From Caldifarciminota bacterium SM23_42 (lineage in GTDB: Bacteria; Hydrothermota; Tepidihabitantia; SM23-42), in NCBI GenBank assembly GCA_001303785.1, contig LJUJ01000012.1, positions 1-58,699 on the forward strand: a stretch of DNA of 58,699 nucleotides, given 5' to 3'. Shown piece after piece: positions 4,217 to 39,182 of the stretch (position 1 is the first letter of the stretch; each line of letters opens with the position of its first letter). The translations under genes were made by a program, and so were the position numbers. The notes below the pieces were generated by a model, which did no database searches, was not told the DNA's origin, and saw only the letters and a list, made by a program, of their open reading frames with translations.

Positions 4217-5470
4217 ATGTTTGTTTTGTTCTTGTTGTTGTTTAATGTAAACGATATACTCATTGCGGATTTAGATGGGGTGATCAGCCCAGCGAGTAGT
4301 TCTTACCTGGTTAGAGTTGTTGATCTGGCTGAGGACCAAGAAGCAACATGCTTGATTTTCAAAATGGACACCCCGGGCGGTCTCGATGTTTCGATGCGCG
4401 AGATAACGAAACGAGTTCTCAATGCAAAGATACCGGTTGTGGTGTACGTTGCGCCCAAAGGTGCGCGCGCTGCCTCGGCTGGTGTTTTCATATTGTACGC
4501 GAGTCACGTTTCGGCGATGGCTCCTGGCACGAATGTCGGAGCTGCACATCCGGTGAGCATGGGTGGAGAGAAGATGGACAGCGTGATGGTTGAGAAGGTG
4601 ACGAATGATGCGGTAGCCTACCTGAAGGCATTGGCCAAAGAGAGGGGCCGAAACGCAGAGTGGGCAGAACAGGCGGTGCGCGAAAGCGCGTCGGTTGATG
4701 CCGAGACCGCGCTGAAGCTCGGTGTCAGCGACCTGATTGCTGAGGATGAGGAAGACTTGATCGAAAAGTTGGATGGGCGAAGGGTTGAGGTAGCTGATGA
4801 AGAGATAACGCTTCACACGCGCGGCAGCCGCACCAAGGAAGTAAAGATGACATTGCGCGAAAGATTGCTGTTGTTACTGACCAACCCTAACATCGCCTAT
4901 GTGCTGTTGCTGTTAGGAATATATGGGTTGTTTTTTGAATTACAGAATCCCGGGATGATTTTTCCTGGGGTGGTCGGTGGTATTTGTCTAATCTTAGGAT
5001 TTTATTCTTTACACGTGCTGCCGGTCAACTATGCGGGTCTGGCACTCATCGTCCTTTCCGCAATCCTATTTATCCTTGAGATATATATAACATCACAGGG
5101 GCTTCTGACGATTGGCGGTATAGTTGCTCTGATTTTTGGTTCATTGATTCTTTTTGAGAGCGATGTCCCCTATTTACGCGTTTCATGGGAGGTAATCATG
5201 CTTGTAGTGATCATAATTGCTGGATTTGTTATTTTCCTATTAACGTTGGGCGTTAAGGCACAGTTTCGGAGGAGGGCAACTGGCAGTGAGGGTATAGTGG
5301 GTGAGATCGGCATGGCTAGAACCGATATCAAACCATCTGGTGGTACCATCTTTGTCCACGGCGAGTTTTGGAACGCAGTCAGCGATAGTAAAATAAAGAA
5401 GGGCAGTAAGGTAAGAGTTATCGATGTTAAAGAAATGATTCTGAGGGTAGAAGCGATAGACTCGGAATAG
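4217..5470 (+). CDS. nfeD: NfeD-family membrane-bound serine protease (ClpP-like)
   Basis: 417 residues in the long NfeD architecture: N-terminal ClpP/crotonase-fold protease, transmembrane block, C-terminal OB-fold. A short hydrophobic N-terminus is followed by MDTPGG (residues 50-55). Ser87 in ASAGV is the expected nucleophile and Lys137 in YLKALAKERGRN the expected base of the Ser-Lys dyad, as in the archaeal 1510-N protease. NVGAAHPV forms the oxyanion-side motif. From about residue 210 there are roughly five membrane segments, then the soluble NfeD domain. Family members cleave stomatin-like proteins and act in membrane quality control; no stomatin gene is present here. The start is set by the -10 box 5 bases upstream. 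Confidence 0.9.
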   Translation: MFVLFLLLFNVNDILIADLDGVISPASSSYLVRVVDLAEDQEATCLIFKMDTPGGLDVSMREITKRVLNAKIPVVVYVAPKGARAASAGVFILYASHVSAMAPGTNVGAAHPVSMGGEKMDSVMVEKVTNDAVAYLKALAKERGRNAEWAEQAVRESASVDAETALKLGVSDLIAEDEEDLIEKLDGRRVEVADEEITLHTRGSRTKEVKMTLRERLLLLLTNPNIAYVLLLLGIYGLFFELQNPGMIFPGVVGGICLILGFYSLHVLPVNYAGLALIVLSAILFILEIYITSQGLLTIGGIVALIFGSLILFESDVPYLRVSWEVIMLVVIIIAGFVIFLLTLGVKAQFRRRATGSEGIVGEIGMARTDIKPSGGTIFVHGEFWNAVSDSKIKKGSKVRVIDVKEMILRVEAIDSE

Positions 5471-5488
5471 AGACAAGTACCTACGCCC

Positions 5489-6205
5489 TTGAAGATACTA
5501 CTACTTCTCAGTTGCTTTGATTCATTTCTGTTTCCTCGAAGTATATTATTTGAAAGGCAGTTCAATCCGGCAGAGCTTTGTCAAAGACGGTTTGAGGTGG
5601 TGCTGACCAGCGAAACTAGATTTGAACTATCCGAACTACGTACGTTTGGCATCTACTCACAGGTCGACAGATATAGCATTGCGGTAGCCAGCTTCGGCAG
5701 TGATTCGTATCGAGAGAATTATTTGGAACTCGCATTTGGGTTTCCCGTTGCCGGTAAATTTTCGTTTGGTTTAAGTGCGGCCGGTCTTAATTGCTGGATT
5801 AAAGACTTCAGCAATGAGTTTGCATATGCGCTCAAGGTCGGAGGTCGTTTCGAGAGTGGGCAGTTCTTAGTCGGCATTTGGGTCAATAACGTCAATGTGC
5901 CGAGGCTATCATCGGTCGATTACGCGCCCGTTAGCTACTCAATACGTTTCGATTACAGAGCACTCCGTAATCTCAATTTCGATTTTGCGATACGTGGTGT
6001 AGAAACGGCATTGCCGTTTTACAACTTGGGGCTAGCTTTTATGCCTCATAAGAATCTGTTAATAGGTTTGGGCGTGAACACAGAGCCGATTTTGCTTGAA
6101 TATGGATTGAAGGTTTCATTCGGCAAGATGTTTCTGAATTATTCGGGTAACCGACATCAACAACTTGGCTTGACTCATAATTTCTGTCTGGGTGTTATTC
6201 CGTAA
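5489..6205 (+). CDS. Predicted outer-membrane beta-barrel protein
   Basis: 238 residues beginning at a TTG codon (MKILLLLSCFDSFLF is a signal-peptide-like start), 18 bases after nfeD. The remainder alternates aromatic and polar residues in beta-strand fashion (YLELAFGFPVAGKFSFGLSA, FDYRALRNLNFDFAIRG) and ends in a strand-like NFCLGVIP. The pattern resembles small PorV/PorQ-type barrels, but no diagnostic motif is visible and function is unknown. Its stop overlaps the ATG of the next gene (TAATG), indicating coupling. Confidence 0.6.
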   Translation: MKILLLLSCFDSFLFPRSILFERQFNPAELCQRRFEVVLTSETRFELSELRTFGIYSQVDRYSIAVASFGSDSYRENYLELAFGFPVAGKFSFGLSAAGLNCWIKDFSNEFAYALKVGGRFESGQFLVGIWVNNVNVPRLSSVDYAPVSYSIRFDYRALRNLNFDFAIRGVETALPFYNLGLAFMPHKNLLIGLGVNTEPILLEYGLKVSFGKMFLNYSGNRHQQLGLTHNFCLGVIP

Positions 6206-7929
6206 TGCTGCTTTTTATATTGGTTATTGCCATAACCGAGGACATCATATTCAAGACCGAACAGGACATCGATTTTGAATTAATTTTGAACGACTTGGAG
6301 TATCTGAAAAACCATCCGATTGATATCAATAGCGCGAGCGTTGAAGAACTTACCCAAATAACGTTTCTGACAGTAAACAACTGTATCAAGATAGTGGAAT
6401 ACCGGGAACGACGCGGCTCGTTCGAATCGGTGAATGACCTACTGAATATTTCTGGTTTTGATGAAACGCTGGTCGATATGATCAGCCCGTATGTGACGGT
6501 TGGGATTAAGCGGATCGATGTAAAAAAGATCGCCGCGCGGACTCGGGTGCAGACGGAATTGCCCGCAGAAAAGCAGTCATCGGAATACCATACCAGAATG
6601 AGTATCTTAGTAGATCAGTATGGGTTTTATGCTGTGACCGAAAAGGATGAATTCGAGAGCAGGTTCTTTGACCATTACGCAGTTGGTTTGTCGGTTGACG
6701 ATGGCATACGGAAGTTTGCACTCGGTAAGTATAATCTAGATTTGGGGGCGGGTGCGGTGCTCTCGACAGTAGGGTCTTTCTTTAGGGGTATTGACTTCAG
6801 AATCATGCTCAATGAGAGACGCCTGCTACCTTATACATCAACGATTGAGAATGGTGGTTTTTTCGGGGCCGCATTCAGTGATTCTTTTTTCGTCAATTAC
6901 ACGCTGTTCTATTCGAATCAAAAGCTCGACGGAAGGATCGATTCACTGGGTTTTGCGCGCTCTTTCGATGAGTCTGGCATACATGTGGATTCATTATCCC
7001 TGAGCCGTCAGGATCAAATCAACGAGGAGATATTAGGATATGATATACGATATCGACGGCCAAAAATGTTGATTTCAAATCGCGCCTATCACTGTTCCTA
7101 CAATCCTGCATTTGTGGCTGCCGACTCGGTGGCCAAGTTTTACGGTGATGACTTCTTCACCACGAGTGTCGAGTTCAGGTATTTCGGTGATGTTTTTGTA
7201 ATGTTCAGCGAAGTTGCGCGTTCATGGAAAAACCGTATCGGTGGTATTTTTGGGTTCAGTGCTGTTTTTCCGTACATCGATTTCAATCTGGCTGGCAAGT
7301 ATTTCCCTAGTGGGTTCTATTCGCCAAAGGGGATCGAAGCGACGGCTAACTTGGCCGGCGGCACGGTAGATATAAAACATCACTCGCCGCTCATTGACGT
7401 TGGGTTGAATTTTGCTCTTGAAAATAGACTCGATGAAGATACTACCAGATATGATTTGAAATTGAGTTTTGCAAAACGGGTAGGCATATTGAATGCTCGA
7501 GTTAATTTCCGCCGACGTTATCGGGATGAGAACAAGGACTTGTCAGGATCCGAGGTCTTGTTACGCATCAGTCCCGTAAAATTCTTATTTTTCGACTTGC
7601 GTTTCGAAGAGAAGTCGGTGTACCAGGAACAAGTAGAAGACGGCATCTTCGGTGCGCTTGAGGTGGGCTTGGATTTTAAGACTATTGATGTCAGGGCACG
7701 CTATGGTGTTTTTCAAACCGATAGCTATGACGCCCGCGTCTATGCCTATGAAATTGACTTACCGGGAATTCTAAATAATCGTATGCTCTACGGAAGTGGT
7801 GACTACGGATTTGTCTATCTATCGGTGAGGATGTTGCAGAACGTCAAGCTAGGAATGAAGTGTTCGATGATTAATCGCGATTCGAAATCAAAGACGCAAA
7901 TAGGAGGACAGTTTGATTTCAGGTTTTAG
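6205..7929 (+). CDS. Helix-hairpin-helix protein with C-terminal outer-membrane barrel
   Basis: 574 residues. After a short hydrophobic start, residues 25-95 hold two helix-hairpin-helix-like units: DINSASVEELTQITFLTVNN and SVNDLLNISGFDETLVDMI, the pattern found in ComEA and other DNA-binding proteins. The remaining ~450 residues are beta-rich with regular aromatic girdles and end QIGGQFDFRF, with the terminal phenylalanine typical of barrels inserted by BamA. Such HHH-barrel proteins are seen in Bacteroidetes-like genomes. A role in surface DNA binding or uptake is a guess. Coupled to the preceding barrel gene by a TAATG overlap. Confidence 0.65.
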   Translation: MLLFILVIAITEDIIFKTEQDIDFELILNDLEYLKNHPIDINSASVEELTQITFLTVNNCIKIVEYRERRGSFESVNDLLNISGFDETLVDMISPYVTVGIKRIDVKKIAARTRVQTELPAEKQSSEYHTRMSILVDQYGFYAVTEKDEFESRFFDHYAVGLSVDDGIRKFALGKYNLDLGAGAVLSTVGSFFRGIDFRIMLNERRLLPYTSTIENGGFFGAAFSDSFFVNYTLFYSNQKLDGRIDSLGFARSFDESGIHVDSLSLSRQDQINEEILGYDIRYRRPKMLISNRAYHCSYNPAFVAADSVAKFYGDDFFTTSVEFRYFGDVFVMFSEVARSWKNRIGGIFGFSAVFPYIDFNLAGKYFPSGFYSPKGIEATANLAGGTVDIKHHSPLIDVGLNFALENRLDEDTTRYDLKLSFAKRVGILNARVNFRRRYRDENKDLSGSEVLLRISPVKFLFFDLRFEEKSVYQEQVEDGIFGALEVGLDFKTIDVRARYGVFQTDSYDARVYAYEIDLPGILNNRMLYGSGDYGFVYLSVRMLQNVKLGMKCSMINRDSKSKTQIGGQFDFRF

Positions 7930-7949
7930 CGGCATTAGGAGCCAGTAAT

Positions 7950-8555
7950 ATGCTTGAGTGGATTAGCAATCAAGGTGTGCTCCTGATATATCTGTTTTTC
8001 TTCTTCAATGCAATGTTTGAAAGTGTTTGCCCTCCATATCCGTCGGATCTCTTTGTAATGGTGTTTTCATTTCTAGCTGGGAGAGGTCTTTATGATCCTT
8101 ACGCGCTTTACTGTCTGACCGTGTTTGGTAGTATCACCGGTATCATGGTAATATACTATGTTGGCACAAAATACGGAGATCGGCTGTTGGCATTCTTTTC
8201 GCGGTCGTTTCTAGGTCGTCTGTTCCCGGTACGTATGATCGAAAGGGCGAAAAAAAAATTCAGCGAGCGAGGCGATTTGATAGTGCTGCTTAATCGGTTT
8301 CTTCCAGGAATGCGGGCACCGATTTGCTTTGCAGCTGGTATTGTGGGTATTAAGAGAGTGAAAGTATTTTGCTACAGTTTAGTGAGCGTGCTAATCTGGA
8401 ATCTTTTCCTGGTTATTGCAGGATTCTATGTGGGCAAAACCTGGGATGAGGCGTCGAGATTCTTAAGGAACTATACGATAATTGTAAGTTTGATACTAAT
8501 TGTTATTTTGGCGGTGCTGACGATCATCTATTTCAAGAGACGTGGCGCTGACTGA
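7950..8555 (+). CDS. DedA-family membrane protein
   Basis: 201 residues with about five hydrophobic segments. The DedA/SNARE-associated hallmarks are present: FESVCPPYPSDLFV near the N-terminus (the family E-x3-P-x-P-x-E/D region), GSITGIMVIYYVGTKYG, and the RFLPGMRAPICFAAGI motif with the conserved R/P/G residues. DedA proteins act in membrane homeostasis, and several flip undecaprenyl phosphate or phospholipids. It follows the barrel gene by 20 bases and converges on the kinase-helicase gene 12 bases further on. Confidence 0.9.
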   Translation: MLEWISNQGVLLIYLFFFFNAMFESVCPPYPSDLFVMVFSFLAGRGLYDPYALYCLTVFGSITGIMVIYYVGTKYGDRLLAFFSRSFLGRLFPVRMIERAKKKFSERGDLIVLLNRFLPGMRAPICFAAGIVGIKRVKVFCYSLVSVLIWNLFLVIAGFYVGKTWDEASRFLRNYTIIVSLILIVILAVLTIIYFKRRGAD

Positions 8556-8567
8556 TGTCTGATGGTT

Positions 8568-11096
8568 CTACGAAGATGTTGTCTTGAACATATCAACCAA
8601 GAATCGGGAAGCATGTTGATAGCGCCCATGACGCCATTTGGGATATAATAGATAGAGTCTTTTCTGCGCACGCGTCAGGGCGACGTAACACAACCTTCGT
8701 TCCTCGGCGATTTCTTTTTGCGATGACATTTTCTTGGTCAGGGGGAAGGTATCCTCGACCAGGTCGACAACAAAGACAACTGGAAATTCGAGCCCCTTGG
8801 CGCTGTGAATAGTCATCAGCTTGACCGCATCCTTACACCAATCGACCAGGTCTAGTTCCTGGATGAGTCGAATTTCGTTCAGGAATCCTGCCAGGTCGTG
8901 ATTCTTGTGGTTGCGCGCCAATGAACTCAGTTCCTCTATGCTGGCGCCTCTTATTCCCGTCACGTCGAGTATGTCTTCGATCAACTTATCTACCCCGATC
9001 ATTCCGAGATTGGTCAGATGATGTTTGAAGACTTTTTCTGCGCGCGGTTGAATTTTTTTAGGGACACTGAATATGCTCTGCGCCTTGCAAAGGAGCCCGT
9101 CGAGGCCATCTTTGCTGAGCGAGCTCCTTTCGAGCAACTCCAAGTATTCGATGAGCGGTTTTACGTCGGCGCGTTCATAAAAAGATGAGCCGCCGATTAC
9201 CTCATGGGGGATACGTGCCTTGACCAGCGCTTCTTTGTAGCCGCAGGCGAGATAGTTCATCCTATAAAGGATTGCGATGTCCTGATGGTTAACGTGCTCT
9301 TTTCTCAGACTTCTGATTTCTTTGACGATGTAATCTGCCTCATCCTGTTCTGATCTCGCGGCGTAGAGAAAAGCCTCGCCAGTGTGTGAACTCGGGATGA
9401 TTGTTGCCTCACGTTGCATTAAGCTGTTGGCAATATCGATTATGCCCTGAGCAAGTCGAAAACTTTTGCTGAGATTAAACATTTGAACATTCCCGTAATC
9501 CTTTGGCACGCGATATATGAGATCACGATTGGCACCCCGCCAGCTGTATATCGCCTGATCTTCATCACCAGTGAAGAATATACGTTTCTTATAGATAAGA
9601 CTGATTAATCTGTATTGTGCCGGACTTATGTCTTGCAACTCATCGACGAATACGTAATCAAAGAGATCCTGGTAGTATCGCCTGATGTCTTCATGATCCT
9701 CGAGCAACCTAACGGAAAGAAGGATGAGGTCGTCGAAATCGATTATGTTCTTTTCGCGCGAGTAATCATGATACTTTTGGTAGACATCCCTGCATGATTT
9801 TTCCCAGGCGTTTTGGGGACTGAATCTCTCCGGGGTGATACCTTTTGCCTTCAGGTTCTCAATGAATCTCGCAATTGCATTCACACGGTATTTCCCGACT
9901 TTAATCTGCATTTCCTGAAGTACTTTCTTGGGTTCGGCGATGATGAAGTCGGTGCTGATATCCAGCCGCTCAGCATCGCGACGGAGTATTCGAAATCCAA
10001 GAGTATGAAACGTACCGAGCCATAAATCATAAGGAGAGAATCCAACACTCTTCTCTAGTCTTTGCTTGATGTCATTTGCTGCCTTGTTGGTGAATGTACA
10101 TACCAGAATATTGGATACTGAAATGCCTCGCTTGATCAAGGCATTGACCGCACTGATCAGGGTAGTAGTCTTGCCACAACCGGCTTGGCCAAGGAGTAGG
10201 ACAGGTTTGTTCAGCGCCCGGAGTACTTCCTTTTGCACACTGCTGAGCCGCACTGTTGTTTCCTTGTTGTCGGTTAATCGAATGCGTCTTACAGCGCGCA
10301 CACCCGCCTCTTGTTTCTTCAATCTTTCCAACAATTCTTCAGCACGGGGGCGCGATTTAGGATCTGGCTTCAAGCTTTCGATAATGATCGCTTCTAAATA
10401 TTCAGGGATCTCATGTCGCAACACACTCGGCGCAAGAAACTTCGCTCTCTCAATTTTGTGTTGCAGCCCATCGAGGCTATCATCTAAAAAGGGCGGTACT
10501 CCTGTGAGTAGTTCGTAGAAAATGACACCTAAACTCCATATATCAGATTTTTCGCTGAAACTGCCAGACCATGCCTCAGGCGCCATGTATATCGGTGTGC
10601 CCGCACTGGATGCTGATATCGTTCCCGACCGGATAAACTTCGCCAGGCCAAAATCAGTTATCTTAACGGCACCCGGTACATTCTTGGCGGTGATGAGTAT
10701 GTTCTCAGGTTTCAGGTCACGATGCAGGACATTATTGCTGTGCGCGTAGGATAATGCGTCGAGTATCTGGATGATGATTTCGGTTGATTGCTTGGCATCG
10801 ATACCGCCTTCAAATATAATATCGCGCAGGTTGTTTCCCTCGATGTATTCCATGACCATGACGAATTTGCTTTCGATAACGTCGATATTATAGAAACGTA
10901 CAATATTGAAATGATCCAAGGAGGCGAGGAGCTTGGCTTCGTCTTTCAGCATCGCAATTTCTTCCTGTCTCATGCGAGATATCTTGAGGGCAAAATCCTT
11001 TTCCAGTATCGTGTCCCGGGCGAGAAAGACATCACCGAATCTTCCACCGCCTAGCCACTGAATAATTTCGTACTTGCCGAGCTTTTTTAACAGCAC
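8568..11096 (-). CDS. Ser/Thr protein kinase fused to UvrD/Rep-type helicase
   Basis: 842 residues, two complete enzymes in one chain. Residues 8-260 are a Hanks-type kinase: glycine loop GGGRFGDV (17-23), Lys38, Glu53, HRDLKPEN (125-132), DFG (148-150) and APE (172-174), all catalytic residues intact. From about 284 an SF1A helicase follows: Q-motif Gln288, Walker A GQAGCGKTTT (303-312), motif Ia CTFTNKAA, motif II DELQD (485-489), motif III GDEDQAIYSWRGA (510-522), motif V from 760 (TIHSAKGLEFPVV) and motif VI near 803 (CYVALTRAQ). The helicase part is about 560 residues, shorter than UvrD, so domain 2B is probably reduced. No membrane segment. Starts 3 bases after the ARPP-1-like gene. No characterised protein of this architecture comes to mind; substrate and role are open. 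Confidence 0.93.
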   Translation of the reverse strand: MLLKKLGKYEIIQWLGGGRFGDVFLARDTILEKDFALKISRMRQEEIAMLKDEAKLLASLDHFNIVRFYNIDVIESKFVMVMEYIEGNNLRDIIFEGGIDAKQSTEIIIQILDALSYAHSNNVLHRDLKPENILITAKNVPGAVKITDFGLAKFIRSGTISASSAGTPIYMAPEAWSGSFSEKSDIWSLGVIFYELLTGVPPFLDDSLDGLQHKIERAKFLAPSVLRHEIPEYLEAIIIESLKPDPKSRPRAEELLERLKKQEAGVRAVRRIRLTDNKETTVRLSSVQKEVLRALNKPVLLLGQAGCGKTTTLISAVNALIKRGISVSNILVCTFTNKAANDIKQRLEKSVGFSPYDLWLGTFHTLGFRILRRDAERLDISTDFIIAEPKKVLQEMQIKVGKYRVNAIARFIENLKAKGITPERFSPQNAWEKSCRDVYQKYHDYSREKNIIDFDDLILLSVRLLEDHEDIRRYYQDLFDYVFVDELQDISPAQYRLISLIYKKRIFFTGDEDQAIYSWRGANRDLIYRVPKDYGNVQMFNLSKSFRLAQGIIDIANSLMQREATIIPSSHTGEAFLYAARSEQDEADYIVKEIRSLRKEHVNHQDIAILYRMNYLACGYKEALVKARIPHEVIGGSSFYERADVKPLIEYLELLERSSLSKDGLDGLLCKAQSIFSVPKKIQPRAEKVFKHHLTNLGMIGVDKLIEDILDVTGIRGASIEELSSLARNHKNHDLAGFLNEIRLIQELDLVDWCKDAVKLMTIHSAKGLEFPVVFVVDLVEDTFPLTKKMSSQKEIAEERRLCYVALTRAQKRLYLLYPKWRHGRYQHASRFLVDMFKTTSS

Positions 11097-11099
11097 AGA

Positions 11100-11960
11100 C
11101 TAGTTAGGAAAAGCTGATAAATGGATTATTTGCTTCTGATGAATAATGCCTTGTCCGGAAAAACCCGGTCCCTTGACGCTGAAGTTTTCTCTTTTGCCAA
11201 CTTTCTTATTCTCCAAGGTTACGATGACTTGGTTCAAGAATTCGGCGACGTCAATTAAACCTCTGTTGTTTTTCTGATATTCTATTGCATCTAGTGCATA
11301 GGAACGAATCAACTTCGTTTCAAACTTACGATAAACAGTCGGGTGAGAAAAGACGTCGCAGCCAAGTATACGGTCGCCTGCGACGCCGATGAAACCAATT
11401 GCCTTGTGATCCAGACTCTGAAATCCTTCGACATACCTTAGTATTTCATCTTCCAGATTATTATAGATGTCGTGCATCGATGAGCTTTGCGAAATGGTCT
11501 TGGTTGCCGTGAGCTTGCGGTCGATTTCGCGCCAGATGACTTGCTGGGTATTGGTTTTCTTCGATGCGAGGAGTGAGCGGAGTCCGGGATAAGAGCAGAA
11601 TCCGGTAGCAAACCCCCCGATCTCGTCCCATCTGCCTTCTTCGGCACAAACAACCGGGATCGTTCTGGACATTCTCGCGGCGATGAGGTTTGAACTGGCG
11701 ATGATGCGGTTTTGCAGTGCGCCAGTCATCTCTTCGCCGTCGAGCACCAGCAGTGGGTAATCTCCTTGGTTATCGAATAATACTTCATTGATGTCAGGAT
11801 TTTCAAGTTCCCTGATCTCGACCTCGCATTTGTCAAATGCTTCATCCAGGGTTGTGATCTTGGGTGTTGTATTGTCGGTAGGATCGAAACTGTCGTACTC
11901 GATCGGATAAGCGATCAGGTTTCTCAAAAAAACCGGGTCGCCCAGGCTAAATCTTTTCAA
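11100..11960 (-). CDS. ARPP-1 (DUF6569)-family protein
   Basis: About 286 residues. The family core is clear: LLVLDGEEMTGALQNRII, then TIPVVCAEEGRW, matching the conserved 'LDGEEL-x-G-x-x-QNR' and 'P-V-x-C-x-E-x-GRW' segments of the ARPP-1 domain, named for association with ADP-ribosylglycohydrolase and rhodanese/phosphatase genes and proposed from gene context to act in ADP-ribose or NAD metabolism. Nothing is known biochemically. The start is uncertain: the frame is open from an ATG at 12050, inside the upstream lipoprotein gene, but the in-frame TTG at 11960, 19 bases past that gene's stop, is more economical. Sits between a lipoprotein and the kinase-helicase fusion. Confidence 0.75.
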   Translation of the reverse strand: MKRFSLGDPVFLRNLIAYPIEYDSFDPTDNTTPKITTLDEAFDKCEVEIRELENPDINEVLFDNQGDYPLLVLDGEEMTGALQNRIIASSNLIAARMSRTIPVVCAEEGRWDEIGGFATGFCSYPGLRSLLASKKTNTQQVIWREIDRKLTATKTISQSSSMHDIYNNLEDEILRYVEGFQSLDHKAIGFIGVAGDRILGCDVFSHPTVYRKFETKLIRSYALDAIEYQKNNRGLIDVAEFLNQVIVTLENKKVGKRENFSVKGPGFSGQGIIHQKQIIHLSAFPN

Positions 11961-11979
11961 TTTGCGCCAGCAAAAGCAA

Positions 11980-12414
11980 CTATGGTGAATACCATGTCGT
12001 AAAATGCCACGTCTCGGTCCAGTCCGTGTACCATTCCCATTCTCGAGCATATGCCCTCAGACGCCAGTAGCGGTGGCCGCCTGTTTCGATCTGGTAGGTG
12101 TATACGGTATCATAGACATTTTCACTGGTAACGCCAGTGAAATCGGTGCTCGTAGATACCTGTAGCTCGTAGTATTCAGTCCCGTCGACGCTACTCCATA
12201 CGAGGTCAAGGTTATTGGGATACGGGTCCCATTGTCCATACCATATGACCGTATCGTTTTCCGGACTAATAGGATTCGGTGCCGCCGGCGGTGGGTACAG
12301 TGAATCAAAAAGAGGTTGGTACTCGTGGGGATCTTTGCATCCCGGATTGAAATTCGCTAGGATCACTATGATGAAAACGGCCATAAATTTGAGCATAGCA
12401 AGACAAACTTTCAT
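11980..12414 (-). CDS. Lipoprotein with fibronectin-III-like domain
   Basis: 144 residues. The N-terminus has a hydrophobic stretch ending NFNPGC, a plausible though imperfect lipobox with Cys at about position 26. A proline-rich linker (LYPPPAAPNPISPENDT) leads to a single beta-sandwich domain of the kind common in cell-surface proteins (LVWSSVDGTEYYELQVS, YRWRLRAYA-type strands), which reads as fibronectin type III. GGAG precedes the ATG at 12414. It lies 13 bases after the TonB-dependent receptor gene, so it may be that receptor's surface partner. Confidence 0.65.
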   Translation of the reverse strand: MKVCLAMLKFMAVFIIVILANFNPGCKDPHEYQPLFDSLYPPPAAPNPISPENDTVIWYGQWDPYPNNLDLVWSSVDGTEYYELQVSTSTDFTGVTSENVYDTVYTYQIETGGHRYWRLRAYAREWEWYTDWTETWHFTTWYSP

Positions 12415-12427
12415 TATTACTCCTTCA

Positions 12428-15025
12428 CTAAAAACTCATACTTATCCCTACACGTGCCCGTCTCGGCTCGCTGTAGGCATTCACCCAGTCATCGGTTGCG
12501 TACAAGAAGTCTCGATAAAGTTCAAAGACTTCGCGCGGGGATATCATCCCATCGTGATTAATATCAGCCGCCGGGTTATATTCAATGGTGCCGATATCCT
12601 CGGTCACGGGCATCGCATAAATGTAATAATCAAGTGTTGATGGATCTATGTCATCCCAGTCGAGCAGTGGTTCATGATACGTGATCTCGTTCCTGATATC
12701 GAGCAGATTTATGATCTCGATGATTGCGTTGATCGAGAATCGACCGAACCTGATTGGCTTTGAAATGACACAATCAACTTGAAACTGATTAGGCAACAGA
12801 TTTATGTTTCTCTCTTCATATTTACCCTCAGGTCCCGGTGGGGTATAAGGAAATCCTTGCCCGATGAAGGCGAAGAGATGCAGATTTGTTTCAAATGGAA
12901 GCCGGGCCGTGCCTTGTACGAATATCTTGTGGCGTTGGTCAAAGTCAAGGTAGTATTCGGTTTTTGGGGGTACGACGGTCGTGTCACCGCCGGTTTGTCT
13001 GATCCACCAAAAATAGGATTCTGCGGCATAAGAACTGGTTCCCCGTGCCCAGGAAAGCGTATACGAAATTTTGCCCCTAAAGACTGTGTTCATAAACTCT
13101 ACTATCGCCTCAATACCTTTGATGTTGGCATATTCAACATTGTCATACTGCCAGTAATCGATCGGCATGGCATTGACAAAACGGGTTCCGATGAGATCAG
13201 ATACATCCTTGTAGAACATATTGAGTGTGCCCACAAGATTCTCGCGTATTTCACCCTGAAAACCTATTTCATAACTGGTTGTCTTTTCCGGTTTAAGGTC
13301 CGGGTTACCAACCGGTGGCAGAAATTCGGCAGTGGCGATATGAGATGGTAAAGGTAGTAGATTATATAGACTATACATATAATCGTACAGCGGTGGTTGT
13401 GCAAAGCGACTGACATTAGCGCGGAAAAGGAATTTATCAGTCACCAAGAAGGAAAAGCCAAACCGCGGTGAAATCATGATCTTGGGTTCGACATCTTCGA
13501 TATCCGCGTCAAAGTAATCGTAGCGGCAGCCGACTTTGGCATACAGACCTTTATAATCAATGTTGTCCTGAAGGTACAGCATATACTCCCTTGGTTTGTG
13601 TTGATACTCGTCGGTAATCGGCGCGGCCGTGTCGCTTACATAATAGGTGAAGTTTTCAAAATCCTGATATGCATACTCGAATCCTGCCTTTATTTCGTGG
13701 TATCTATGTGCCTGTAGGTTGGTGCTGACATTGCCTTTTATGATATGTGAAGTCTTCTCTTGATATTGAGGGTAGTTACCTGAAAAATACGGTGCAGAGA
13801 TGCCGGTAAGAAAGGAACCCTCCCAGACCCCAAATGGATTTGGCGTAGTCGTTCCCGGCCACTGTAGGTTTTGGTAGTCACGAAATCTGAAATTGTCCAA
13901 TACCCCGTATGGTCCCTCTTCGCGGACCCCGTATATCCTTTTGGTATGCAGCCTGCTCAGTGTCATCTTGAATAGACTCTTTGAATTGGGCATGTAACTA
14001 GCGTTGAACACCTCTAGGTCGCTATTCCGCATGTCGGAACGATAATCATCGAGTATATACTTGTAGCGCGTGTCGTAGCGATCAAACTGACTACGTGCTT
14101 TTACCCCACTCAGGGTTATCTGCAGTTTCCCCGAAGGCGAAAAATACCACTTTCCGTATAAGGAATAGTCAGAACGCTGTTTGTGCGGCAAGATGAAGAG
14201 CTTAGGGTTCCAGTCATCCGTATGCATGACGTCGAATGAGAAGAACCCTTTGGCTTTTCGGGAAATTGGGAGGTGAATCGAAGATTGATAGTTCTGATAT
14301 CCGAAATCGTAGTAAAAGGGCATGATCGTTTCGGTTTTTGAGTAGAGCTTACCCTGAACGTTGTTTGCCGGATGGGCAGTTAGCAAATTGATGACGCCAG
14401 ACATGGCGCGTCCGTATTCGGCATCAAATCCACCAGGTAAAAAGATTACTTCATTCACGCTACCCTTCGATACATAAACCGTTGGATCACCGGTTTGTGG
14501 ATCAAGTACCGAGACGTTATCGACCAAGTATAGTACCTCAGTAGCTCTGCCTCCTCGTACGTGAAATGCAGTGTCGGAGCGGACTACTGAGGGCTGAAAA
14601 GCGATTGCGCTCACGGCGTAATCGACAGGCAAGATTGCCAGTTCAGACCTACGGACGATGTAGGTTGTTCCTACCATGTCCTTGGTTACTGAAGGAAGTT
14701 CGCTGGTCACGGTTACCGGCGGTATTTCGATTGCGGTTTGTTTTAGACGCACCATCAGGCGGGCAGTCTGGTCAAATTCTACGATTACATAATCCACTAT
14801 TTGTGTTTGATATCCGAGACAGGAAATCTCGACTCGATATCTGCCGCTGGGTACGTTCAGAATGAAAAAATTACCATCTTGGTCCGTGGCGGCGCCTAGC
14901 TCGGTATTCTGAATCATGACGTTTGCGTAAGGTATTGGTTCACCGGTGTTCTCGTCGGTTACCGTACCTTGAATCTTGCCGCCGGTTGTATTAAAGAGCA
15001 TGATCATTATGCAGAATGGTGTCAT
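12428..15025 (-). CDS. TonB-dependent receptor with carboxypeptidase-regulatory-like domain
   Basis: 865 residues. Residues 12-95 form the carboxypeptidase-regulatory-like (CarboxypepD_reg) beta-sandwich: GKIQGTVTDENTGEPIPYAN and YRVEISCLGYQTQIVD. The plug domain follows (AFHVRGGRATEVLYLVDNV, GGFDAEYGRAMSGVINL), then a long 22-strand-type barrel ending RARVGISMSF. This is the organisation of FCB-group TonB receptors that import large nutrients or metal complexes; the ligand is unknown. A perfect EF-hand-like loop (DINHDGMISPRE) lies near the C-terminus. Start ATG 15025 is preceded by AAAGGAGG; the visible signal peptide is unusually short. First gene of a four-gene operon ending in the kinase-helicase fusion. 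Confidence 0.88.
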   Translation of the reverse strand: MTPFCIMIMLFNTTGGKIQGTVTDENTGEPIPYANVMIQNTELGAATDQDGNFFILNVPSGRYRVEISCLGYQTQIVDYVIVEFDQTARLMVRLKQTAIEIPPVTVTSELPSVTKDMVGTTYIVRRSELAILPVDYAVSAIAFQPSVVRSDTAFHVRGGRATEVLYLVDNVSVLDPQTGDPTVYVSKGSVNEVIFLPGGFDAEYGRAMSGVINLLTAHPANNVQGKLYSKTETIMPFYYDFGYQNYQSSIHLPISRKAKGFFSFDVMHTDDWNPKLFILPHKQRSDYSLYGKWYFSPSGKLQITLSGVKARSQFDRYDTRYKYILDDYRSDMRNSDLEVFNASYMPNSKSLFKMTLSRLHTKRIYGVREEGPYGVLDNFRFRDYQNLQWPGTTTPNPFGVWEGSFLTGISAPYFSGNYPQYQEKTSHIIKGNVSTNLQAHRYHEIKAGFEYAYQDFENFTYYVSDTAAPITDEYQHKPREYMLYLQDNIDYKGLYAKVGCRYDYFDADIEDVEPKIMISPRFGFSFLVTDKFLFRANVSRFAQPPLYDYMYSLYNLLPLPSHIATAEFLPPVGNPDLKPEKTTSYEIGFQGEIRENLVGTLNMFYKDVSDLIGTRFVNAMPIDYWQYDNVEYANIKGIEAIVEFMNTVFRGKISYTLSWARGTSSYAAESYFWWIRQTGGDTTVVPPKTEYYLDFDQRHKIFVQGTARLPFETNLHLFAFIGQGFPYTPPGPEGKYEERNINLLPNQFQVDCVISKPIRFGRFSINAIIEIINLLDIRNEITYHEPLLDWDDIDPSTLDYYIYAMPVTEDIGTIEYNPAADINHDGMISPREVFELYRDFLYATDDWVNAYSEPRRARVGISMSF

Positions 15026-15080
15026 TCAGACCTCCTTTCTTCTTATGAATCAAACAGCCGTTCAAATCGAACATTCGTAC

Positions 15081-15108
15081 ATCTTATGTTAGCATGCGTT
15101 ATCAACAA
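15081..15108 (-). promoter_or_regulatory. Possible promoter of the TonB receptor operon
   Basis: Minus strand: TTGTTG (15108-15103), 16-base spacer, TAAGAT (15086-15081). Weak boxes but the same spacing as every other promoter in the window; leader of about 50 bases with an AAAGGAGG site before ATG 15025. The rest of the 302-base divergent gap holds one CACAGAATACAC repeat unit (near 15128) and nothing else recognised. Confidence 0.4.
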
Positions 15109-15282
15109 TCTCTCACATAGAGGCTCACAGAATACACGGCGCTCCCATTGTATATTAGGCAAAAAAGCCGATATTGTCAAGAAAATTGGGATATATTGAG
15201 GTTGATGAATGAGGGTTCTCGTAAGGATACTATATAATAATGAAGCGAGACATGTTGCGCTGCCGGTTACGCCACTAGAATC

Positions 15283-15310
15283 TTGATTTTTGTATCAATT
15301 TATTTATAAT
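15283..15310 (+). promoter_or_regulatory. Promoter of metK-ahcY
   Basis: TTGATT (15283-15288), 16-base spacer, TATAAT (15305-15310). The expected start near 15317 leaves a leader of about 11 bases consisting almost only of the AAAGGAGG ribosome site, so no SAM riboswitch can be accommodated. Confidence 0.75.
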
Positions 15311-15327
15311 ACGGAAAAAGGAGGCAA

Positions 15328-16470
15328 ATGGAACACTATTTCATTACTTCTGAGTCAGTTACCGAAGGGCATCCCGATAAAATTTGTGATCAAGTATCAG
15401 ATGCGATTCTAGATGCGATACTGGAAAAAGATCCCTTTGGCCGGGTGGCCTGCGAAACGCTAGCAACCAGAGGCATGATCTTCGTTGCCGGAGAAATATC
15501 AACGAATTGCTACGTTGAGTTTGCGGACATTGTGCGGGCGCTCTTGTATGATGTTGGTTACTCGGACGCGGACATGGGAATTGATGCGCACACCTGTGCA
15601 GTAATTTCCGCGATTCAAGAACAATCGAGCGATATTGCTCTTGGCGTTAACATCGGGGGTGCTGGAGATCAGGGCATGATGTACGGCTACGCGACCGATG
15701 AGACGCCCGAACTCATGCCCCTGCCGATAATGCTTGCCCACAAATTAGTCCGCCGTCTCTCTGAGATCAGAAAAACGAATGTCGTGAATTATCTACACCC
15801 GGATGGTAAATCCCAAGTGACCATCGAGTATAGAAAAAACAGCCCGGTGAGAGTTGACACAATCATTCTATCGGCGCAACACCATCCGAATGTAACTAAC
15901 GAAAAAATGCATGCCGATCTAAAAAAACTGGTTATCGACGATGTTGTTCCCAAGAAACTTGTTGACGACAAGACGAAAATGTGGATCAATCCGACTGGTC
16001 GATTTGTTATCGGCGGTCCGCAGGGAGACACCGGCGTCACGGGTAGGAAAATCATGGTTGACACTTACGGCGGTGTTGGACATCATGGTGGAGGATGCTT
16101 TTCGGGAAAAGATCCCACAAAGGTAGACCGCTCAGCATCCTATATGTCACGTTATGTCGCCAAGAACATTGTTGCAGCAGGAATATGCAAAAAGGTCGAG
16201 GTTTCGGTTTCGTATGCGATCGGTGTTGCTGAACCCACGTCGATTACCGTGGATACGTTCGGCACATCGAAGATAAGTGATAGCAAAATTGTATCCATCA
16301 TCCGCAAGCTCTTCGATTTCACACCACAGGGGATGATTGACAAACTGAATTTACGGCGTCCCATATTCCGTCGGACCGCATGCTACGGACATTTCGGGCG
16401 TGAAGAAGAGGGGTTCGATTGGGAACTTTGTGATATGGCAGATGCATTGAAACGTGAGGCAGGTATTTAA
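15328..16470 (+). CDS. metK: S-adenosylmethionine synthase
   Basis: 380 residues, normal length for bacterial MAT. Makes SAM from methionine and ATP in the cytoplasm. Motifs: [17 protein letters not shown] (His and Asp of the triphosphate site), [26 protein letters not shown] and the DTYGG / [15 protein letters not shown] loop. Start ATG 15328 follows AAAGGAGG by 3 bases. Its stop overlaps the ATG of ahcY (TAATG), so SAM synthesis and SAH recycling are co-expressed. Confidence 0.97.
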
Positions 16471-17729
16471 TGAAGATAGGAAAAGTGGTGAAATACAATA
16501 TACGCGACAAGTCATTGGCGCAGGAAGGCTATAAAAGAATTGACTGGGCCGATGCAAAGATGCCGGTGTTGAAGCTCGTCCGTGAGCGACTCAGGAAGAC
16601 GAGGACGCTTCGAAACCGACGCATTGGTTGCTGTTTGCATGTCACAACCGAGACGGCAAATCTGATGCGTGCCTTAAGAGCAGCCGGTGCCGAGGTTGCC
16701 TTGTGTGCCTCAAATCCGTTGTCGACCCAAGATGACGTCGCCGCCGCGTTGGCCCTCGAAAACATAAGTGTTTTCGCCTGCCGGGGTGATTCACGTAAGG
16801 AATACTACGCAAACATGTATCAGGTGATTGCGCGTCGGCCAGAAGTGTTGATCGACGATGGAGCCGATTTAATTTCTACCGTGCACAAGAAGAGATTAAC
16901 AGGGATTTTGGCCGGCACCGAGGAGACAACAACGGGTGTAATAAGACTCAAACAGATGGAGCGTGATCATGTTTTAAGATTTCCAATCATTGCGGTCAAC
17001 GATTCTTTGACCAAACATCTCTTCGACAACCGATATGGTACTGGACAGTCGACTATCGATGGCATTCTGCGGGCAACAAACATTCTTATTAGCGGTAGTA
17101 ATTTTGTGGTCGCGGGTTATGGTTGGTGTGGCCGGGGTCTGGCCATGCGTGCCAAGGGTATGGGTGCACAGGTCATCGTCACCGAGGTGGATCCAGTTAA
17201 GGCGCTTGAGGCACGCATGGATGGCTATACGATTATGCCCATGTCTGAGGCGGCAAAGTCGGGCGACGTTTTCGTTACGGTAACCGGTGATATCAACGTC
17301 ATCAGAAAAGAACACATGTTGAAGATGAAGGACGGTGCGGTGATTGCTAACTCTGGTCATTTCGACGTGGAAATTGACAAACCGGGTTTGAGAAAAATAA
17401 CCAAGAGAAAACGTCTGATAAGAAAATCCTGTGAGGAACATGCGTTGAAGAATGGTAGGAAGATATACTTGCTTGCCGAGGGTAGATTAGTCAATCTGGC
17501 AGCGGCAGAAGGTCATCCGGCAATGGTTATGGATATGTCATTTGCCAATCAGGCACTTGCCGTAGAATACATTCTAAATCATCGTGATCTGGACAAGCGT
17601 GTATACTGTCTACCATTAGAGTTGGACCAAGAAATAGCCAACCTGAAGTTAAAATCGATGGGTATAAAGATGGATAAACTCACGCCCGAACAGCGGCGAT
17701 ATCTGTCGTCATGGAAGATGGGAACGTAG
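16470..17729 (+). CDS. ahcY: Adenosylhomocysteinase
   Basis: 419 residues. Hydrolyses S-adenosylhomocysteine to adenosine and homocysteine, removing the inhibitor of methyltransferases. Visible signatures: [12 protein letters not shown] (substrate-binding His and TE pair), the Rossmann loop [13 protein letters not shown] for tightly bound [12 protein letters not shown] and [10 protein letters not shown]. Length matches the short archaeal/thermophile type that lacks the ~40-residue insertion of many mesophilic bacterial enzymes. The C-terminal [18 protein letters not shown] ends in the variant lacking the KPxxYRY tail of the long type, which also fits the short group. Confidence 0.95.
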
Positions 17730-35811: not shown

Positions 35812-36768
35812 ATGAGTAAAAAATATCTCTTGATTGCGCTTGCCGTGTTAATCATCGTCGCTTGGTGGCAACCTCTGAACTTTGGCCAAACCGAAGTGAC
35901 GATTCCCGGTGATGTGAGTGCTCGCGAAATTGCACACTTCTTGGCTTATCAGCGTATTGTCCGCAATGTCGAAGAATTTCTTTTTTGGTTGAAAATAACG
36001 GGGCGTGAGAGGAATCTGAAATCAGGTACCTATGAATTACACAAGTACAAGAACCCTCTCTATGTAATTGGTCGGCTCGCCAGTGGAGGAAAATCAGAGA
36101 TCGTCGTCACGTTACCCGAGGGATTAACAATGTATGAGACCGCTCGGATTCTAGCTGAACGCGGATTGGTAGATGAGAATCGATTCCTTGAGTTGTGTCA
36201 TGACGAGAAGTTCATAAATGAAATAGGCCTCAAGGTACCTTCTCTGGAGGGCTACTTTTTTCCTGATACCTACTCGTTTAGCAGATTACAGAATGAGGCG
36301 GCAATCATCACGACATTTACAAGGAATTTCTTTAGCCGCATCGCCAAGATTGGCTTAATGGATAACGATTCACTGCACCAGGTGATAATACTCGCCTCGA
36401 TTGTTGAGAAGGAGGCGAAATATGAAGACGAAAGGCCAATCATTGCGAAGGTATTTCTCAATCGACTAAAGTCAAGACGTCCCTTGGAGTCGTGTGCTAC
36501 GATCTTCTTTATATTGAAAGTGAAGGACCCGCTAACCACGTCCCAAAGACTCACCGACCGCGATCTGCAAATCGGCTCACCGTACAACACGTATTTACAC
36601 CTTGGGTTACCACCAGGTCCGATATGTTCGCCGGGCGAGAGTGCGATAACGGCGGTGATGTCGCCGGCCGATGTTGATTATCTATACTTCGTTGCCAAGG
36701 GCGATGGGCGGCACCATTTTTCGCGCACATACAGAGAACATATGGCGGCAAAGGATACATACCAATGA
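35812..36768 (+). CDS. mltG: Endolytic murein transglycosylase MltG (YceG-like)
   Basis: 318 residues. One N-terminal transmembrane helix (KKYLLIALAVLIIVAWWQ), a LysM-like segment (PEGLTMYETARILAERGL), SLEGYFFPDTYSF, and the catalytic IILASIVEKEAKYEDE with the conserved Glu. GLPPGPICSPGESAI and the SRTYREH ending are typical. Cleaves nascent glycan strands and sets their length. The usual LQ-x-DPT motif is replaced by LESCATIFF, an unusual substitution near the active site. ATG 35812 directly follows ruvX; a 4-base overlap joins it to the first cyclase-like gene. Confidence 0.92.
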   Translation: MSKKYLLIALAVLIIVAWWQPLNFGQTEVTIPGDVSAREIAHFLAYQRIVRNVEEFLFWLKITGRERNLKSGTYELHKYKNPLYVIGRLASGGKSEIVVTLPEGLTMYETARILAERGLVDENRFLELCHDEKFINEIGLKVPSLEGYFFPDTYSFSRLQNEAAIITTFTRNFFSRIAKIGLMDNDSLHQVIILASIVEKEAKYEDERPIIAKVFLNRLKSRRPLESCATIFFILKVKDPLTTSQRLTDRDLQIGSPYNTYLHLGLPPGPICSPGESAITAVMSPADVDYLYFVAKGDGRHHFSRTYREHMAAKDTYQ

Positions 36769-39182
36769 TTGAAAAAGGTCTTGAAGAAAGCGTGATTCGT
36801 GAGACTCCGTATTACGAGAAACTGCGCGCGACATACCGCGATAGTGCAAACTTCAAGAGGTATTTTAACATCTTAAAGAGAGTTGCACGGCGGGATCCGT
36901 TCATAGAGAAATTAGAAAAGAACGGCGGAAAAGAATTGGTATATCTTGGCAGAAGGATTTACACCCTTCAGGATGATTTCGTCTTGAATTACATTGAGTT
37001 CCTGCGCGACGAGTCACAAATAGAACGCTGGGATAAATTCTTTGAAAGATACAGTCAGCATATATTCGATATTTATGAGGACTTTGTGAATGGTATTAGT
37101 GCCAACGTGGTTATATTCGAGATCGCGAACCGTAAGTTACTCCGTGACATTCTCACTAAGAGAACGCTGAAGGCATCCCTCGATACGAAAACGCTGATCG
37201 CCGAACGATGTGGTACAGTGGTGAATCATCTTTTCAATTATATACGGAATTCATTGACGAAACGTACGGTGGTAGTCGATAACATGATTGTCGATTCGTA
37301 CGAGCACATTCCCTTCGTTCCCAAGACGAGCAATATTGAGACGATGAGGATACTCAGTCAGTCTCTAAAGAAGAAAGGACTCCCCGAACCAATATTCAGC
37401 GCGATTCTTAAAGGAATGACACGTTCCTACTACGCTGATGAGAAGTTGAGAATAATCGAAGCGATAGCTAAATTGCCTTCGCTGACCAAAAAGGCGATAA
37501 GTGACATCTTTGAGTCACAATTTTTCTATCCGGATGAGCAGACGTTAACCGAGATCATCGATGCGCTGCAAAAACGTGGGCGTAAGTTGATGGCCGACGT
37601 CACTAGCAAGAAAAAGAACATAGAAGAAAAGATGCAGAACATTAGGAGAAAGATAACGGATACGACAAACATCATGAGTGATAGTCTGATAAACCTTGCC
37701 GAAGACTTCTCGACCGAGGAAGCCATCGAAAACATGGTGAAACGGTTACATCGAAATGTGATAGGCAATGCTTACGACCTGAAGATTCTAAAATGGGAAT
37801 ATCAAGAATGTCAGGACAAAGAAAATAACCTTAAGGATATCATGCGCTTCAAGCCCGCGGATCTTACCAGGCTTGTCGTCAAGGAAGAATGGGACCCATA
37901 CATAATGCAGGTGCTTCATAGACATGATGAGGTAGCAGATGACAAGCTGCAGTTGATACTCAAGGACGCGGCCAATGATATTAAACATGATGAAGCTGCA
38001 CAACAGATTATGAATCAGTACCGGATGGCGGCTTTCCTCAAAGAGAAATATGATAGCCATCAGATCATGGATAGATTCAACAAGATTGTCGACGAAGTAA
38101 TCACGCCACTTGTGAAATCAATAATATTAGAGGAACTGGTTGACTATTACCCGAAACTATCAGAGATAACGACAACCGAGGGTATTCGTTTCTTGGGCGA
38201 GGAGGCTGCAGCGGGGCGTGTTTCGATGATTGAGAAGGATATAAATGTCACATCATCCGAAGAATCTGCCTCGGACGTGAATGTACTACGTTACAAGAAT
38301 TTGGTTTCGGTCCTGGTGTATGACATAAGGGGATCGACGTTCATGGGCGCGAAATTGCTGAATGCCGAGAAGGAGAGTGCAATACGAAATCTATTTCAAG
38401 AATCGATGCTCTTCGTAGCCGAGAAATATGGAGGTATTCCAATCAAAGATACCGGCGATGGTGGTGTGATATTCTTCGCACGGAATCACTACGACATAAA
38501 GGATGAGAAGACCTTACGTCCGGAAACTGGAAATGTGTTACCGGCGGTGCGTTGCGCAATTGAGATGGTGCAGGAGGCGAAGTTATTTGTACAGAAAAAT
38601 ATCCACCGGTATGGAGACTGGTTCCGTGACGTCCAGGAACGGGAGATTGACTTTGAAGGAGCCGCCTATGCCAAGCTTCCACCTTCATATCAGTCAATAT
38701 TCCAGGTGGGAATAGGTCTTGCCTCGGGTTACTATCCGCGCGAAGTATATTTGGACAAGAATGCGTTTGGTGAGCATGACTTGACAGGAATGCTCGTTCG
38801 CGAAGCGAATCTGTATTCTACGGTAAAGGCGAAAGGAAAATCAACCGTGATATGTGACGACGCAACGGTCTACAATGTTTTGCTGAATGTTGACCGATTT
38901 TCCTTTTTGAACGAGGCTGGGTTGCGTATTGACCCGGTACAGCTTAACATCCAGCAGGCTTTGGAGTATTGGATAAGACAGAGAACAACGCGTAAAGGAT
39001 TCATTCTTGACATCTTTAAGATATTTGTTGCAAGATTTGGCCGCGAGATGGCGGATACGGAAAACTTGAAGATCGTACTGGATGACAGTGATATTGTTAT
39101 TAACGATGGTATCGACGTTCAACTTAAGAAAATGGAGCGTAGCAAAATGCTTTTTGAGTTGTACGCGGAGGTAGTGAAATGA
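36765..39182 (+). CDS. Class III nucleotidyl-cyclase-like protein, long helical N-terminus (A)
   Basis: 805 residues, no membrane segment or signal peptide. Residues ~1-500 are mostly helical with coiled-coil stretches (SKKKNIEEKMQNIRRKI). Residues ~510-720 are a class III adenylate/guanylate cyclase domain: Asp520 in LVYDIRGST and Asp565 in GDGG are the two metal ligands, Lys561 in IKDTGD sits at the purine-selecting Lys, and FQVGIGLASG is the next core strand. The region equivalent to V-N-x-A-x-R reads LVREANLYST (677-686), so the transition-state Asn and Arg are not in place. An extra ~60 residues sit between the GDGG hairpin and GIGLASG. Paralogue of the next gene, overlapping it by 4 bases. 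Confidence 0.75.
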   Translation: MIEKGLEESVIRETPYYEKLRATYRDSANFKRYFNILKRVARRDPFIEKLEKNGGKELVYLGRRIYTLQDDFVLNYIEFLRDESQIERWDKFFERYSQHIFDIYEDFVNGISANVVIFEIANRKLLRDILTKRTLKASLDTKTLIAERCGTVVNHLFNYIRNSLTKRTVVVDNMIVDSYEHIPFVPKTSNIETMRILSQSLKKKGLPEPIFSAILKGMTRSYYADEKLRIIEAIAKLPSLTKKAISDIFESQFFYPDEQTLTEIIDALQKRGRKLMADVTSKKKNIEEKMQNIRRKITDTTNIMSDSLINLAEDFSTEEAIENMVKRLHRNVIGNAYDLKILKWEYQECQDKENNLKDIMRFKPADLTRLVVKEEWDPYIMQVLHRHDEVADDKLQLILKDAANDIKHDEAAQQIMNQYRMAAFLKEKYDSHQIMDRFNKIVDEVITPLVKSIILEELVDYYPKLSEITTTEGIRFLGEEAAAGRVSMIEKDINVTSSEESASDVNVLRYKNLVSVLVYDIRGSTFMGAKLLNAEKESAIRNLFQESMLFVAEKYGGIPIKDTGDGGVIFFARNHYDIKDEKTLRPETGNVLPAVRCAIEMVQEAKLFVQKNIHRYGDWFRDVQEREIDFEGAAYAKLPPSYQSIFQVGIGLASGYYPREVYLDKNAFGEHDLTGMLVREANLYSTVKAKGKSTVICDDATVYNVLLNVDRFSFLNEAGLRIDPVQLNIQQALEYWIRQRTTRKGFILDIFKIFVARFGREMADTENLKIVLDDSDIVINDGIDVQLKKMERSKMLFELYAEVVK

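Follow-up and report, generated by a model that had tools for sequence, protein, structure and literature searches.

Background

Is a Ser/Thr kinase joined to a UvrD-type DNA helicase a real protein, and if so, what could it serve? This is the question raised by one long frame in the window, meaning here the whole 58,699-nucleotide stretch of DNA that we analysed. A preliminary description had read that frame as a kinase and a helicase encoded by 842 uninterrupted codons, and knew of no characterised protein like it. We examined the frame itself, its conservation, its neighbouring genes, and its likeness to known systems.

Domain architecture of the fusion

We found a complete PknB-like Ser/Thr kinase and a complete UvrD/PcrA-type SF1A helicase in one chain, the kinase-helicase fusion (KH; Table 1). 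Its frame has no interruption on the minus strand, and the plus strand of the same interval holds many stops. The Pfam matches are Pkinase at residues 9-257 (E 3.5e-57), UvrD-helicase at 286-534 (7.1e-62), and UvrD_C at 722-818 (1.5e-45). Together, frame and domains bear out the reading of a single kinase-helicase protein. Most residue numbers given previously were also correct (Lys38, HRD 125-127, DFG 148-150, APE 172-174, Walker A from 303, and motif VI at 798-809); the Walker A lysine, however, is Lys309 rather than Lys310, with GQAGCGKT spanning 303-310.

Table 1. Features of the two-gene locus (positions are those of the window)
Feature	Positions	Strand	Details	Basis
KH, kinase-helicase fusion	8568..11096	minus	842 aa; GTG start at 11096	Open frame, Pfam
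Kinase half	10302..11096	minus	Residues ~1-265; PknB-like RD kinase	Pfam
Kinase residues			K38, E53, H125-R126-D127, N132, D148-F149-G150, E174	
SF1A (UvrD/PcrA/Rep-type) helicase half	8568..10253	minus	Residues ~282-842	Pfam, motifs, PDB sequence matches
Helicase motifs			I 303-310; Ia 334-336; II DELQD 485-489; III GDxxQxIYxxR 510-520; IV FR 546-547; V 762-770; VI 798-809	
2B-like helicase region	8823..9173	minus	Residues ~642-757; 116 aa	Alignment of 62 sequences
ARPP-1 (PF20208), cytoplasmic type	11100..12050	minus	316 aa as called	Pfam (E 9.8e-62), neighbour alignment, tree, signature residues

The kinase half carries the VAIK lysine, the alpha-C glutamate, the HRD aspartate, the asparagine, the DFG aspartate, and the APE glutamate, and is thus predicted to be an active Hanks-type kinase. 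The helicase half has motifs I to VI, including Ia, with the Walker A lysine, DExQ, and the motif VI arginine, as in UvrD/Rep-like SF1A enzymes. The linker between them measures just 24-35 aa in the 62-sequence alignment, and KH holds no sensor domain besides kinase and helicase.

At the structural level, the AF2 models of KH and of its neighbour ARPP-1 were each built from 6-9 sequences. The KH model (pTM 0.43) is usable domain by domain, leaving aside kinase-helicase contacts, and shows a largely helical 2B-like region. A Foldseek search with it recovered UvrD/PcrA and PknB; the rmsd is high for the helicase half because the domain packing in the model is unreliable. For ARPP-1, the low quality of the model (mean pLDDT 54.5) ruled out a structure search, and no relative was found in the PDB by sequence.

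Conservation and origin of the fusion

Using tblastn against 147 genomes of the phylum (WOR-3/Stahlbacteria), we retrieved a KH match from 64, one per genome and free of internal stops. The majority extend over the kinase and the greater part of the helicase; contig ends truncate a few. Other genera and families have full-length homologues at 55-71% identity, so the join is not confined to this assembly, and the same domain order recurs in six genomes of two other phyla (G160, and five of nine genomes in the phylum of G314). No further genome with KH appeared among 386 sampled around the phylum of G314.

We aligned 62 KH sequences, five of them from other phyla. In the kinase half, K38, E53, H125, D127, N132, D148, F149, G150, and E174 are invariant, K129 is invariant or nearly so, and R126 is Arg in 58 sequences and Gly in four. 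In the helicase half, K309, D485, Q488, D489, G510-D511, Q514, R547, K767-G768, E798, and R809 are invariant, and E486 and R801 are each kept in 61. Between close pairs, dN/dS ranged from 0.00 to 0.19 in the kinase and from 0.01 to 0.22 in the helicase. Since three phyla keep the fusion with the active sites of kinase and helicase intact, functional coupling of the two halves is very likely, as judged from sequence. The sequences favour neither of the directions suggested earlier, unwinding gated by phosphorylation or a kinase activated by DNA binding.

When compared to stand-alone proteins, the KH kinases form one clade (support 97), and so do the KH helicases (support 98). Thus, the join most likely arose once. 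The KH-positive genomes we looked at also carry a separate, ordinary UvrD in a clade distinct from the KH helicase half, so KH is an addition to the normal enzyme; we rejected the idea that it replaces it. Where KH is missing, the genomes encode ordinary UvrD helicases and kinases rather than split KH halves.

These results bear directly on the concern that two genes were wrongly joined during assembly or annotation. The same join at 31-71% identity in many independent MAGs as well as in some single-contig assemblies, and the monophyly of both halves speak against it; we found no point in its favour. With the fusion present in phylum relatives and in two other phyla, an artefact is refuted, and we give it practically no weight.

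The ARPP-1 partner

The gene directly upstream of KH, absent from the preliminary description, encodes a member of the ARPP-1 family and turns a lone odd fusion into an obligate-looking two-gene module. A gap of 3 nt separates its stop codon from the KH start, which suggests translational coupling. The protein scores 209 bits against a PF20208 gathering cut-off of 27 and has the invariant Cys and Gln. Among 117 aligned sequences, Q113 is present in all and C135 in 116, and both are found in every KH-adjacent protein. R115, E137, R140, and R158 are conserved as well, and E107, P155, S191, and H193 are signature residues common to most KH-type ARPP-1s. The true start may lie downstream of 12050, because the first ~34 aa are unconserved.

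Within the phylum, ARPP-1 was detected in 61 of the 64 KH-positive genomes and in 20 of the 83 KH-negative ones (Fisher p 6.5e-20, uncorrected for shared ancestry), and all 61 have the cytoplasmic form. Clear matches to a cytoplasmic ARPP-1 in KH-negative genomes came only from G021 and G047, both fragmented MAGs whose congeners carry KH. No ARPP-1 was detected in three KH-positive genomes (G017, G048, and G050), two of which are 94-98% complete; KH may thus manage without it. Outside this phylum, ARPP-1 lies directly upstream of KH in all six KH-positive genomes, and four KH-negative genomes from the same two phyla have no ARPP-1 at all.

The two genes are adjacent on the same strand in 43 of 67 paired genomes, 31 of them within ~31 nt. 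ARPP-1 comes first in 41 genomes and KH in two (G121 and G122), and in several families of the phylum the genes are unlinked. The KH-type ARPP-1s form one cytoplasmic clade of 66 rows (support 99, in a quick tree search without bootstraps), apart from the exported forms and from the ARPP-1s of KH-negative outsiders. All full-length cytoplasmic ARPP-1s of KH-positive genomes, 42 adjacent and 23 unlinked, account for 65 of these rows. KH is therefore paired nearly one-to-one with a single ARPP-1 subclade, and the persistence of the pairing where the genes are unlinked suggests that ARPP-1 is more than a bystander.

We separated cytoplasmic (~290-305 aa) from exported ARPP-1s (with a signal peptide, ~315-410 aa) by N-termini read by eye. 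The exported class (e.g. L109:6468-7352, equal to G000:C24:48470-49321, and ~40 other loci) occurs in many of the same genomes on a separate branch and is not tied to KH.

Genomic context and mobility

KH is flanked by chromosomal household genes: S-adenosylmethionine synthetase (metK), S-adenosylhomocysteine hydrolase (ahcY), a DedA-type protein, NfeD, and a TonB-dependent receptor. In related genomes, too, KH sits among such neighbours. Plasmid and phage records gave no match covering at least 80% of the KH query, and searches of plasmids, phages, and viral contigs yielded no ARPP-1; we rejected a mobile or viral origin on these grounds. The IMG/VR matches were single kinases or helicases, with unfused pairs in the two contigs examined. 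Overall, KH and ARPP-1 behave as a vertically inherited, single-copy chromosomal two-gene module.

ARPP-1 genes were also seen in other settings. In G250 (L248:3167-5795), one lies 12 nt from a NERD/UvrD-type SF1 helicase gene that seems split in two frames. In G224 (L243:5443-8827), one directly precedes Cas6 and further CRISPR-associated genes. In G266 (L244:2260-8903), ARPP-1 accompanies an ADP-ribosylglycohydrolase (ARG), a PD-(D/E)XK nuclease, and an SNF2-type helicase, as in the ARG-centred neighbourhoods already published.

Comparison with known systems

Like PcrA, UvrD, and Rep, KH has all the SF1A motifs and a C-terminal PSRFL-like motif, and the best PDB sequence matches of its helicase half are PcrA, UvrD1, UvrD, and Rep. 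Unlike them, it has an N-terminal kinase and a 2B-like region of 114-155 aa, the part with the greatest length variation in the 62-sequence alignment. The 2B region of UvrD is longer, at roughly 170 aa. KH scores far below the full-length NCBIfam equivalog cut-offs of these helicases (PcrA, TIGR01073, 395 vs. 911 bits; TIGR01075, 318 vs. 1144; TIGR01074, 328 vs. 951).

The kinase half resembles PknB/Stk1-type Hanks kinases in its complete RD kinase, its PknB-like sequence, and its predicted fold, and PknB is its nearest bacterial solved kinase. It differs in having a helicase where a C-terminal sensor usually sits. KH has no PASTA match and reaches 217 of the 450 bits set for PASTA kinases (NF033483).

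The closest functional precedent we found is YabT of Bacillus subtilis, a Hanks kinase activated by DNA, with a recombinase as a substrate (PMC3708118). Like KH, it associates a bacterial Ser/Thr kinase with DNA binding and repair; unlike KH, it has a DNA-binding motif rather than a fused helicase, and is a putative membrane kinase (PMC3708118).

The ARPP-1 family was first described in predicted conflict systems, and its members were proposed to act on ribose or other sugars, perhaps through a covalent cysteine link as in SRAP (PMC9503650). Elsewhere in bacteria, ARPP genes occur in two-gene neighbourhoods with HIRAN genes, whose products bind DNA 3' ends (PMC9503650). The ARPP-1 upstream of KH is a clear member of this family, but a kinase-helicase is not among the neighbourhoods given there. 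No ARG, phosphatase, or WYL gene was present among the flanking genes scanned (4217-17729), so the scanned region does not hold the ADP-ribosylglycohydrolase and phosphatase that mark an ARG-centred ADP-ribose conflict system.

Regarding defence systems, many PADLOC models (GajB, PD-T4-6, mad6) match the two KH halves at the domain level only. The closest of the curated NCBIfam defence models score far below their cut-offs (MAD6, 180.8 vs. 460 bits; PglW, 96.3 vs. 990). Partner genes of Gabija (GajA), BREX, or MADS were absent from the flanking genes scanned, and KH is not assigned to Gabija, PglW, or MADS.

Each kind of KH domain and the ARPP-1 family were known already; what is best called new is the fused architecture and the two-gene module. 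In the open-access literature searched, with narrow phrase searching, we found no description of a kinase-UvrD fusion or of its pairing with ARPP-1, in line with the earlier statement that no characterised protein like it was known.

Proposed function and alternatives

UvrD/PcrA-type motors bind single-stranded DNA and move 3'-5'. KH would load on single-stranded or 3'-tailed DNA through such a motor, and DNA engagement would alter the motor conformation and switch on the N-terminal kinase in cis, probably accompanied by activation-loop autophosphorylation around Ser161/Ser163. The kinase may then phosphorylate KH itself, ARPP-1, or other DNA-metabolism proteins. In the DNA opened by the helicase, ARPP-1 would act on an exposed sugar, such as an abasic site or an ADP-ribose adduct, using the invariant Cys135 together with Gln113, Arg115, Glu137, and Arg140. 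Genome maintenance would thus be the role of the module: a helicase that responds to DNA stress, carries its own kinase, and works with a partner handling lesions or adducts.

We hold this explanation as a whole, a DNA-gated kinase-helicase with a sugar-acting ARPP-1 in genome maintenance, only tentatively, at a probability of roughly 45%. It is favoured by the conservation and single origin of the fusion, the low dN/dS, the ARPP-1 pairing, and the chromosomal housekeeping setting. The sugar proposal and the HIRAN neighbours of ARPP (PMC9503650) and the YabT precedent (PMC3708118) point the same way, as does the second link between ARPP and a helicase, in G250. Against it count the families of the phylum where the two genes are unlinked, the three KH-positive genomes with no detected ARPP-1, and the shared ancestry behind the co-occurrence statistic. 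A bolder version, which we consider improbable, would make KH a checkpoint-type bacterial kinase activated by DNA: its translocating helicase would link the recognition of abnormal DNA directly to protein phosphorylation within one chain, as a functional analogue of the eukaryotic DNA-damage kinases, and ARPP-1 would be its dedicated partner, shielding sugar lesions covalently or repairing them.

The main rival to genome maintenance is anti-phage defence: the helicase would sense foreign or damaged DNA, the kinase would be a toxic effector, and ARPP-1 would counter or read phage-driven ADP-ribosylation. Defence systems often contain kinases, and often UvrD-like helicases; the PADLOC matches, the first description of ARPP-1, and its position beside ARG, nuclease, and SNF2 genes or CRISPR genes in other phyla all fit this idea. 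Those PADLOC matches, however, reflect generic domains, and the MAD6 and PglW scores fall well short. Moreover, KH is a phylum-wide single copy among housekeeping neighbours, with low dN/dS and no sign of mobility, all of it concordant with vertical descent. This pattern sets defence back, and we regard it as disfavoured and unlikely.

DNA sensing could also be dispensed with. Another signal would trigger autophosphorylation that switches an auxiliary UvrD/Rep-like helicase, acting for example in replication-transcription conflicts, and ARPP-1 would be merely a co-regulated metabolic enzyme. The helicase half is indeed a close relative of PcrA/UvrD/Rep, KH exists in addition to the canonical UvrD, and the most length-variable part of KH is the 2B region, which has an established autoregulatory role in Rep and UvrD. 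Against this stand the short linker, the lack of a further domain that could receive the signal, and a pairing with one ARPP-1 subclade that is nearly one-to-one and holds where the genes are unlinked. We find this reading quite improbable.

A kinase and a DNA motor in one chain make it possible to test directly if Ser/Thr kinases of bacteria can read the state of DNA, with no need to identify an upstream sensor. The pairing also assigns ARPP-1 a particular partner and hints at a function connected with DNA or nucleotide sugars; a DNA-related job shared by the two proteins is putative.

Additional observations

The window also contains three large open frames with no Pfam match, at 36765-39182, 39179-41446, and 54292-56853 (805, 755, and 853 aa). 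In another genome, the ordinary UvrD match (G054:C1:499489-500823) has one in-frame TAA, either an error or a real interruption.

In two prophage-like IMG/VR contigs (L166:4950-8847 and L181:4737-8740), separate genes for a Ser/Thr kinase and a small UvrD-like helicase are adjacent, followed by a third gene with no Pfam or PADLOC match where scanned. These pairs place the same two activities of KH side by side; unlike KH, they are unfused, the helicase is much shorter and closest to the PADLOC 'NERD+UvrD' model C3a187, and the third gene is unrelated. Kinase, small helicase, and third gene are possibly an undescribed defence trio.
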